A DNA stretch of 64,000 nucleotides from an uncultured Kordiimonas sp. (GTDB lineage Bacteria; Pseudomonadota; Alphaproteobacteria; Sphingomonadales; Kordiimonadaceae). A program made the position numbers and the translations under genes. Of this stretch, positions 15,682 through 21,695 are shown in pieces; within the stretch, counting starts at the first letter, position 1, and each line of letters begins with the position of its first letter. The stretch spans positions 372,001 to 436,000 of the forward strand of contig CANMRM010000003.1 of NCBI GenBank assembly GCA_947500295.1. The letters are read 5' to 3'. The notes beneath the pieces are model-generated. The model was not told the DNA's origin and ran no database searches. It saw only the letters and a program-made list of their open reading frames with translations.

Positions 15682-15714
15682 CCGTTTGCAGATTAGACCA
15701 TACCGTTTGCAGAT
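15682..15714. promoter_or_regulatory. Candidate LytTR operator (12-bp direct repeat, 21-bp period)
   Basis: CCGTTTGCAGAT occurs at 15682-15693 and again, identically, at 15703-15714. The offset of 21 bp is two helical turns, the hallmark of LytTR sites, and ACCGTTTGC in the second copy fits the family's usual 9-bp half-site closely. It lies 29-61 bp upstream of the LytTR gene and 75-107 bp upstream of the hydrolase gene. Confidence 0.75.
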
Positions 15715-15788
15715 CACCAGAGGAAAAAGCGTCTGATTTCAGCCAGATAGGAAGTACTTGCGAAACTGAATACAAAGTGAGGATCACA

Positions 15789-17243
15789 ATGAATTATAAA
15801 AAAACACTGGTCGCTTCCTTGTTGGCTGCTGCCGCATTGATGACACCGACCGGCGCGACAGCAAGCCCTGACGGCGAAAAACCCATCACCTTTGAAGAGC
15901 GGCGCGGTGAAACAGTAGACGCCTTTGAGGGCACTTTCATGGTGCCTGAAAACCGAAACAAGGCTGATAGCCGGCAAATCCCCATAACCTATGTGCGCTT
16001 TCCGGCCACGGCCGACAACCCTGGTGCGCCGATTGTGTATCTGTCTGGCGGGCCCGGCGGCTCTGGTATCAGGACGGCACGCGACCGTCGGTTTGCCATG
16101 TTCATGGCTTTGCGCGCGCACGGTGACGTCATTGCGCTGGACCAGCGCGGGACCGGTGCCTCCAACATCCTGCCGGAGTGTGTTTCCAAAGAGCATGTCC
16201 CAAACGAGAGGCAGGTGAGCGACGCAGAACATGTTGCCATTCATCAGGCTGCGTTGAAGGAATGCCTGGCTTTCTGGCGCGAAGAAGGGGTCGACATTGC
16301 GGGATACAACACAGTTGAAAATGCGCGTGACCTTGAAGACCTGCGGCGTCACCTGGGGGCTGAAAAGATCACCTTGTGGGGTATTTCGTATGGCAGTCAT
16401 CTGGCTTTCGCTGCCTTGAAGGAGCTTGGAGACCGGATCGAAAAAGTGGTGATTGCCAGCGCGGAAGGTCTGGACCAGACCGTCAAGATGCCAGCGCGTA
16501 CCGATGCCTATTTTGATCGCCTTCAGGCCGCGATTGACACGCAGCCCGGCGCAAAAGCGGCGTATCCCGACATCAAGGCCCTGATGCGCCGTGTGCACGC
16601 CAAGCTGGAGGCGGAACCTGTTATGCTCGATGTGCCGCTACGCAGCGGTGGTACTGCGCCGTATCTCTTTCATCGGCGGGACATGCAGATGGTTGCCAGC
16701 GCACTAGTTTCCGACCCGGGCCGGGTGGCGCAGTTGCTCAACCTCTATCTTGCGGTTGATGCGGGCATCATGGAGCCGCTTGCGGGTCTCCTTGGCCGGT
16801 TTGTTGTGCCGGGCGAGCCCATCAGCATGCATGCCATGTCAACCGCGATGGATGTTGCTTCCGGCATGACGGCGCCGCGCAAGGCCTGGATCGCGGAGCA
16901 GGCGGAGACGGCGTTGTTGAAGGACTATCTCAACTTCAGTTATCACTATGACGGCGTGGCGCCCGAGCTTGACCTGGGGGATGGTTTCCGCGCCAAACCG
17001 GTCAGTGATGTGCCGGTGCTCCTGTTCAGTGGCACCCTCGACGGACGCACCTATATCGAAAGCCAGCGCGAATCTGTTGAAGGGCTCGGTAACCTGACCA
17101 CTATTATGGTCAAAAATGCCGGGCATAACCTCTATATGCTGTCCTCGGACGTGCAGGATGCCATTGACCGTTTTTTGCGCAATGAGCCGCCTGCAGCGCC
17201 AGTGATTACAGTCGAGTTGCCGGACATGGCACCGCGCCGCTGA
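15789..17243 (+). CDS. Secreted alpha/beta hydrolase, S33 tripeptidyl aminopeptidase-like
   Basis: A 484-residue exported hydrolase. The signal peptide ends near GATAS. The oxyanion motif GGPGGSG is at about 88-94, the nucleophile Ser200 is in WGISYGSH, the acid in LLFSGTLDGRT and the catalytic His in KNAGHNLYM. The ALDQRGTGAS motif is typical of S33 proline-iminopeptidase and tripeptidyl-peptidase relatives. It probably trims peptides in the periplasm or outside. ATG 15789 follows GAGG; the upstream open frame to 15654 covers the operator region and is not coding. The LytTR site upstream suggests inducible expression. Confidence 0.88.
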   Translation: MNYKKTLVASLLAAAALMTPTGATASPDGEKPITFEERRGETVDAFEGTFMVPENRNKADSRQIPITYVRFPATADNPGAPIVYLSGGPGGSGIRTARDRRFAMFMALRAHGDVIALDQRGTGASNILPECVSKEHVPNERQVSDAEHVAIHQAALKECLAFWREEGVDIAGYNTVENARDLEDLRRHLGAEKITLWGISYGSHLAFAALKELGDRIEKVVIASAEGLDQTVKMPARTDAYFDRLQAAIDTQPGAKAAYPDIKALMRRVHAKLEAEPVMLDVPLRSGGTAPYLFHRRDMQMVASALVSDPGRVAQLLNLYLAVDAGIMEPLAGLLGRFVVPGEPISMHAMSTAMDVASGMTAPRKAWIAEQAETALLKDYLNFSYHYDGVAPELDLGDGFRAKPVSDVPVLLFSGTLDGRTYIESQRESVEGLGNLTTIMVKNAGHNLYMLSSDVQDAIDRFLRNEPPAAPVITVELPDMAPRR

Positions 17244-20585: not shown

Positions 20586-21695
20586 CTACTCTTTGAGTAA
20601 CGCCTGAGCAAGGCTAACGGTTGCATTGGCGAGCTTATTATATCCCGAGCCGTTGTTGTTCAGAATAATAATTGTCAGCCCCCTTTCCGGGAAACGGCCG
20701 ATAATCGATGTATAGCCGTTGATGCCGCCATTGTAGGTGATGATGCGGGCGGTTGCGCCTTTATCATCAAGCGGAATAGCGCCAACCACCCAGGCAAACG
20801 GCATTTCCGGATCAAACATGATGGCTTTGCTGTCCGACGACAACAGGGCATCACCGTATAGGCCTTGGTCCCATTTCAACAGGTCCCGCGCCGTTGAATG
20901 AAGCGAACCGGTTGCCTGAAACAGGTCCATATTCACATAGCCGCTTTTGCAGTAGCGGGCGTCAGCGGGCTGACAACTGATTTCCTCACCGTTGCGCATA
21001 TAATCACTCGCGAGATGAGGAACCACCTCGCCTTCCTGATAATCACCCGTATCTGTCATGCCAAGCGGGGACAGAATGCGCTCTTCCAGAACTTCGGAAT
21101 AGGGTTTTCCCGTAGTGGTTTCCAGGATTTTGCCGAGCAGGAAATAGTTGGAATTGGAATAGCGATACTCGCTGCCTGGCTCGAAATTGAGCGGCTCCGC
21201 AGCAAAAGCGGCGATGAAGTCCTCGTCCGAGCTTGCGGATCTGAACTTGCCATCCCTCCAGCCGGGCAATTCGGCATAGTGGGGAATGCCGGACCGATTG
21301 GCGAGCATGTGCCGCACAGTGATCCGGTTTTTGTAGTCAGCTGGATACTCCGGCAAATAGGTGCCGAAAGTGGCATCAAGATCTATTTGGCCAGCTTCTA
21401 CAAGTTGCATGACCAGCACGGCGGTGAAAGATTTGGTCATCGACGCGATACGGAAGCGTGTTCCGGGAAGGTTTTCGACATTGTGTTCCCTGTTGGCAAG
21501 GCCAAAGCTCGCCAGGGCAATGGGCTGGCCATCTTTTGCCACCAAAAACGTGCCGTCTATCTCGGCCGTTTCCGCTTGTTGGGCAATGAGCGAAACCAGA
21601 CCATCCTCGGGGATGTTGAGGTCCTGGGCGCTGCTGGTCATAAGTGGAGGCAGAGCAACTGCAAAAGCTATCGCCTTTAGGGCTGTGTGGATCAT
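20586..21695 (-). CDS. Serine hydrolase, class C beta-lactamase-like
   Basis: A 369-residue exported protein of the beta-lactamase/penicillin-binding family. Signal peptide about 1-23. The SxxK motif is S85-M-T-K88, the YxN motif is Y179-S-N181, and GGINGY near the C-terminus takes the place of the KTG box, as in esterase or D-aminopeptidase relatives. This makes a peptidase or esterase role more likely than antibiotic resistance. It is upstream of a small membrane protein gene and downstream of the amidohydrolase. Confidence 0.85.
   Translation of the reverse strand: MIHTALKAIAFAVALPPLMTSSAQDLNIPEDGLVSLIAQQAETAEIDGTFLVAKDGQPIALASFGLANREHNVENLPGTRFRIASMTKSFTAVLVMQLVEAGQIDLDATFGTYLPEYPADYKNRITVRHMLANRSGIPHYAELPGWRDGKFRSASSDEDFIAAFAAEPLNFEPGSEYRYSNSNYFLLGKILETTTGKPYSEVLEERILSPLGMTDTGDYQEGEVVPHLASDYMRNGEEISCQPADARYCKSGYVNMDLFQATGSLHSTARDLLKWDQGLYGDALLSSDSKAIMFDPEMPFAWVVGAIPLDDKGATARIITYNGGINGYTSIIGRFPERGLTIIILNNNGSGYNKLANATVSLAQALLKE

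Follow-up and report, generated by a model that had tools for sequence, protein, structure and literature searches.

The locus lies in a 64-kb stretch of DNA that was analyzed as a whole (the window). A gene for a LytTR protein and a gene for a secreted alpha/beta hydrolase diverge from a 135-bp gap, which houses two identical copies of CCGTTTGCAGAT with a period of 21 bp (Table 1). The original prediction had described the exact repeat, its period, the divergent gap, and the two flanking genes, and the sequence confirmed each of these points. Framed as 9-bp half-sites, the repeat reads GCCGTTTGC, a 12-bp spacer, and ACCGTTTGC, an exact 9-12-9 spacing. As had been proposed for its core, the repeat closely resembles published LytTR half-sites, for example ACCGCTTGT-12-ACCGCTTAT (PMC6193735), in half-site sequence as well as in spacer length.

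Table 1. Coordinates of features at the locus (positions in the window).
Feature	Position	Strand	Sequence or basis
DR1 (operator repeat 1)	15682..15693	+	CCGTTTGCAGAT, exact sequence; conserved columns, 41 loci
DR1 9-bp half-site	from 15681	+	GCCGTTTGC
DR2 (operator repeat 2)	15703..15714	+	CCGTTTGCAGAT, exact sequence
DR2 9-bp half-site	from 15702	+	ACCGTTTGC; most conserved half-site over 41 loci
-35-like box, hydrolase promoter	15721..15726	+	AGGAAA here, GTGAAA-like in relatives; 10 bp past half-site 2
-10-like box position	15744..15749	+	CAGATA here; 17 bp past the -35-like box
One-component membrane regulator, 498 aa	14157..15653	-	Pfam, AF2, fold search, conservation
Secreted S33/TAP-like alpha/beta hydrolase	15789..17243	+	PF00561 and PF08386; secretion signal by eye

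The repeat stands out from its surroundings. Exact 12-bp repeats are expected ~5e-6 times in a 135-bp gap at lag 21 and ~2e-4 times at any lag from 12 to 60. At lags 18–24, the whole window contains a single exact 12-mer direct repeat, the CCGTTTGCAGAT pair, and the 33-bp pattern, with up to three mismatches allowed, occurs there once and in shuffled sequence not at all. A scan of the 4.27-Mb source genome with a degenerate pattern and two mismatches returned the operator site and one chance-like site, with one match in the control; a slightly different pattern gave one other two-mismatch site (G000:C3:516673), also chance-like. The original prediction had called for such a scan for further sites of the same spacing, and none was credible in this genome. 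On these matches, the operator appears to be effectively private to the hydrolase promoter. A gene for a PF00144 beta-lactamase-fold protein lies 5 kb away (window 20586-21695, - strand), and the window scan found no operator copy ahead of it.

The regulator carries a LytTR domain (PF04397) at residues 402-497 (Pfam E 3.3e-20); the Pfam search found this domain only, with neither a receiver (PF00072) nor a kinase (PF06580). In the AF2 model (15 sequences, pLDDT 85.7, pTM 0.71), the chain begins with a signal peptide or helix followed by a periplasmic jelly roll at ~36-165. Seven transmembrane (TM) helices then run from 169 to ~365, the last of them continuing as a signaling helix to 390, and a LytTR fold occupies 394-497, matching 3d6w (Z 16.9) and AgrA (3bs1, Z 13.6). 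The 7TM bundle matches GPCR folds at Z 14.2, a value close to the ~13-14 that unrelated helical bundles can reach. The jelly roll, which contains the invariant cysteines C38 and C52, matches domains of GH2 beta-glucuronidase and beta-galactosidase (Z 11-13). Sensor, membrane helices, and DNA-binding domain thus share one polypeptide, and the model supports a one-component membrane LytTR protein with a periplasmic domain.

In the hydrolase, S200, D418, and H446 are invariant in the alignment and stand at putative catalytic-triad positions. Its alpha/beta fold, Ser-Asp-His triad, and TAP-like C-terminal part are those of the S33/TAP-like class. Hip1/CaeA and TnmK1 are its best matches in both sequence and structure (Hip1 and TnmK1 at Z 27-29 with the AF2 model, pLDDT 88.7), at 16-18% identity, from which a substrate is not transferable.

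Conservation of the repeat and layout of the promoter

We compared full-length homologues of the regulator, drawn from whole-genome searches of the genus and family with a few from the rest of the order and phylum. They include Alphaproteobacteria (Parvularcula, Marinicaulis, Maricaulis, Euryhalocaulis, Robiginitomaculum, and Alteripontixanthobacter) and Gammaproteobacteria (Pseudoalteromonas, Aliikangiella, Planctobacterium, and Marinibactrum). Their upstream gaps read CCGYTYRCMGAY-N9-CCGYTYRCMGAY, and the same repeat and spacing recur in dozens of related marine bacteria. At lag 21, 29 of 39 homologous gaps from both classes scored at least 20 of 24, and 17 scored at least 22; any other lag from 13 to 35 gave at most nine and two gaps, respectively. 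Because the scan consensus was composed after part of the scored loci had been viewed, a consensus-free lag test on the same gaps provides the cleaner figure: a peak of 18 gaps at lag 21 against three or fewer at other lags. About one-quarter of the gaps scored below 20, and some gammaproteobacterial members (L052 and L070) have the repeat copies at altered spacing. The repeat is oriented toward the hydrolase in 29 gaps and toward the regulator in one. Half-site bases vary among loci (C/T, A/G, and A/C) within a fixed frame, as expected of a binding site and not of a recent duplication.

Conservation of the repeat with the gene pair had been set beforehand as a check; the period-21 repeat does stay with the pair over Alpha- and Gammaproteobacteria. 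The homologues in these counts are not independent, some of the genomes being close, and the evidence is comparative throughout. From it, we conclude that the 33-bp double repeat is a real, conserved LytTR operator, to which binding is predicted. The regulator family itself is patchy and not universal: a search of 385 class genomes at E<=1e-40 found homologues in only one genome (G038) besides the source genome, and phylum-wide, eight of 398 genomes were positive.

Read toward the hydrolase, the layout is a 9-bp half-site, 12 bp, a second 9-bp half-site, 10 bp, a -35-like box, 17 bp, and a -10-like box. Two direct repeats of ~9 bp, within the 11-13 bp separation of LytTR operators, therefore lie upstream of the -35 position. 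In an operator-anchored alignment of 38 loci, the -35-like peak (GTGAAA) scored 2.99 against a 95% null of 2.27; the -10-like peak was marginal (2.84 against 2.82), at the expected 17-bp distance and 33 bp after the second half-site. The window's own -35 and -10 boxes match the consensus poorly, and no sigma-70-type or consensus promoter was called in the window; such boxes suit an activator-dependent promoter without proving one. Activator promoters of the LRS type have 9-12-9 repeats whose distance to the -35 box is strongly biased to 10 bp (PMC6193735). Mainly because sequence, spacing, and distance all agree with these published LytTR/LRS activator sites, activation of the hydrolase is, by analogy, the likeliest direction of control.

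Exchange of partners and two-component relatives

Orthologues of the S33 hydrolase (E<=1e-60) number 18 in 59 related genomes, and all 18 adjoin a gene of the sensor family. Elsewhere, the divergent partner is a PF00144 beta-lactamase-fold protein (L139, L141, L142, L143, L058, L061, and L062). The operator is retained beside five of these and degenerate in L141, while L058 has a perfect repeat of its own; the partner in L064 was assigned as PF00144-like by sequence resemblance. In one genome (G016), the gene for a regulator paralogue diverges from one for a trypsin that carries ankyrin repeats at its C-terminus, again with the operator between the two genes (L140 2371-5556). On a tree of 37 regulators, at least five changes of partner type are needed, and for the S33 partner, three changes are forced by well-supported branches. 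Further operators lie before PF00144 genes and are oriented toward them in G012 (L136 6988-7020 and L137 2562-2594) and G016 (L138 2957-2989); of the two further PF00144 genes that carry the operator in G012, one is common to G016. By their sequence, these operators before beta-lactamase-fold hydrolases probably constitute a small regulon. That the operator is kept despite partner exchange suggests that the constant theme is the control of secreted serine hydrolases of any fold, and since the repeat recurs even with an unrelated enzyme, it is very probably the receptor's switch for secreted hydrolases.

The LytTR domains of the 37 fused regulators form one clade (SH-aLRT 97 in a quick tree of a short domain), apart from the other LytTR proteins of the source genome and from two-component response regulators. 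At one locus (L021 251-2661, which shares its contig with L072), the sensor region forms part of a histidine kinase, a LytTR response regulator comes next, and both the divergent S33 gene and a recognizable operator are kept. Kinases at L053, L073, and L083 have divergent PF00144 or S33-like genes without the operator of the regulator clade. By eye, the kinase-type siblings L053, L055, L022, and L083 have other half-sites at lag 21 or 20; we rejected these repeats as instances of the same operator because the half-sites differ. The repeats of 21-bp period among them lie upstream at ~1230-1270 in L053, ~2760-2800 in L055, and ~1150-1190 in L022. With other half-sites in most two-component siblings, the repeat appears specific to the fused-regulator clade.

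The source genome contains 13 LytTR domains. One belongs to a histidine kinase and LytTR response regulator pair (L157 365-2799; G000:C1, ~40.4-42.8 kb), and it groups with two-component forms of the sensor family. Upstream of another LytTR response regulator gene, TTTTCGA(G/C)GATTT occurs twice, 21 bp apart, a candidate operator (L154 3275-3308). A second LytTR gene diverges from a hydrolase gene (L160 1959-2825 and 2896-4293; G000:C2, ~663.5-665.8 kb); the hydrolase combines a PDZ domain with a dienelactone-hydrolase/S33-like domain, and the pair is reminiscent of HigX and its hydrolase. With this PDZ-alpha/beta hydrolase as its partner, the second LytTR gene shows that such pairs recur.

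Proposed mechanism and known systems

From the operator, spacing, orientation, conservation, linkage, and domain architecture computed here, we infer, with a probability of roughly 75%, that the divergent membrane LytTR protein uses the repeat as its operator and that the LytTR domains of the dimerized receptor bind it and activate hydrolase transcription. The receptor would dimerize, and its two LytTR domains would bind the two half-sites on the same face of the DNA. From there, just upstream of the hydrolase -35 box, they would activate the gene for the secreted serine hydrolase. Binding of an outside ligand by the jelly-roll 7TM receptor may be relayed to the LytTR domain without phosphorylation, because a long helix joins the 7TM bundle directly to the DNA-binding domain. 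The original prediction of a one-component envelope circuit stands as far as the modeled membrane LytTR protein with its periplasmic domain is concerned; its suggestion of a peptide signal does not, as nothing was found in its favor. The modeled sensor fold instead speaks for a glycan or small metabolite. Most plausibly, the ligand is a periplasmic glycan, muropeptide, or small ester or amide, perhaps the substrate or product of the hydrolase. More tentatively, and with the balance of probability against it, the family may be a patchy but wide class of 7TM-DNA-binding receptors, each in a closed loop with a secreted serine hydrolase. The enzyme fold would be exchanged (S33, beta-lactamase, or trypsin) around a constant receptor, operator, and promoter layout, and the receptor's ligand would be what the enzyme consumes or produces.

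The opposite sign of control, with the membrane LytTR protein keeping the hydrolase gene off until a signal releases it, is unlikely. It has a precedent in CoxC, an alphaproteobacterial membrane one-component LytTR regulator that represses at PcoxB and is released by CO (PMC11347149), but at PcoxB the operator and the -35 box overlap, whereas the half-sites here end ~10 bp upstream of a conserved -35-like box, the usual position for an activator. It is decidedly improbable that the repeat mainly serves the regulator gene, with the hydrolase a bystander or merely coregulated. With DR1 just 28 bp from the start codon of the regulator, the regulator promoter must be at or behind the operator, and LRS operators do serve autoregulation of their operons (PMC6193735); yet the hydrolase is the gene that the repeat and the promoter-like boxes face, and the same site stands alone before hydrolase genes in G012 and G016. 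Some autoregulation besides control of the hydrolase is likely.

We give very little credence to the site belonging to another of the 13 LytTR proteins of the genome, numerous as they are, or to an unrelated factor: it tracks the regulator clade over genera, classes, and partner swaps, the remaining LytTR proteins are distant, and chance-like matches aside, it is unique in the genome. Duplication does yield short repeats, but a chance repeat is rejected by the shuffles, the expected number at lag 21, and the lag-21 conservation, and in diverged genomes the copies have gathered substitutions at fixed spacing; the probability of chance or of neutral tandem duplication is negligible.

In the LRS systems HdrRM and BrsRM, one autoregulated operon encodes a soluble LytTR regulator and, downstream of it, a separate membrane inhibitor (PMC6193735). 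The present locus is like them in its ACCRCTTAY-like half-sites, 12-bp spacer, 10-bp distance to the -35 box, and predicted control by a membrane module. Unlike in LRS, sensor (7TM with a periplasmic domain) and LytTR domain are fused here, and a divergent gene for a secreted hydrolase is the predicted target; no separate membrane partner lies beside the regulator gene. By analogy, the system would work like a fused LRS, yet by definition it is not one. HigX of Caulobacter, a membrane LytTR protein with four TM helices, no periplasmic domain, and a COG4188 hydrolase partner, shares the membrane-bound one-component form, the alphaproteobacterial setting, and the gene's divergence from a conserved hydrolase gene (PMC13384398). 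The ChIP motif reported for HigX is an inverted repeat, with no direct-repeat operator described in the shared gap (PMC13384398). With 7TM helices, a jelly roll, and an S33/TAP-like partner, the present regulator is not a HigX. CoxC, a repressor of cox genes, has an MHYT 7TM domain and three repeats over the -35 box (PMC11347149). Like RcoM, it is a one-component LytTR regulator whose direct repeats are spaced by about two turns of the helix (18-21 bp for CoxC); RcoM differs in being a heme protein with three repeats.

In architecture, the AF2 model, with a periplasmic beta domain followed by a 7TM bundle, is that of the 7TMR-DISM receptors such as RgsP, in which these parts precede a cytoplasmic output (PMC6107284). 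That paper names kinases, GGDEF/EAL, and PAS domains as outputs, whereas a DNA-binding LytTR domain takes this place here. PF07695 (7TMR-DISM) matches the window regulator weakly (E 0.67) and seven of 19 relatives (best 5e-4), compared with E 2.6e-5 for the related kinase at L053, still below the cut-off. YpdB, whose repeat is GGCATTTCAT (PMC4847170), and AgrA share the LytTR fold and a pair of direct repeats separated by about two helical turns, but they are response regulators under a separate histidine kinase, whereas the window regulator is one protein. We found no published description of the regulator-hydrolase pair or its operator, which is weak evidence, as subscription papers lay outside the search. 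Membrane one-component LytTR regulators are known as a kind, and the present family is a variant.

The signals and targets of membrane-bound LytTR regulators are an open question, stated explicitly for HigX (PMC13384398). The family offers a defined predicted operator, a target promoter, and a small set of assayable secreted enzymes, which makes reporter-based ligand screens straightforward. Unrelated serine hydrolases swapped behind one receptor and operator, together with the one kinase/response-regulator case, amount to a natural experiment on the interconversion of one- and two-component systems. The family perhaps also offers a rare example of a GPCR-like 7TM bundle connected directly to a transcription factor. 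In a Foldseek comparison, the regulator model aligned as a whole with human WLS (E 3e-5), at a high rmsd.
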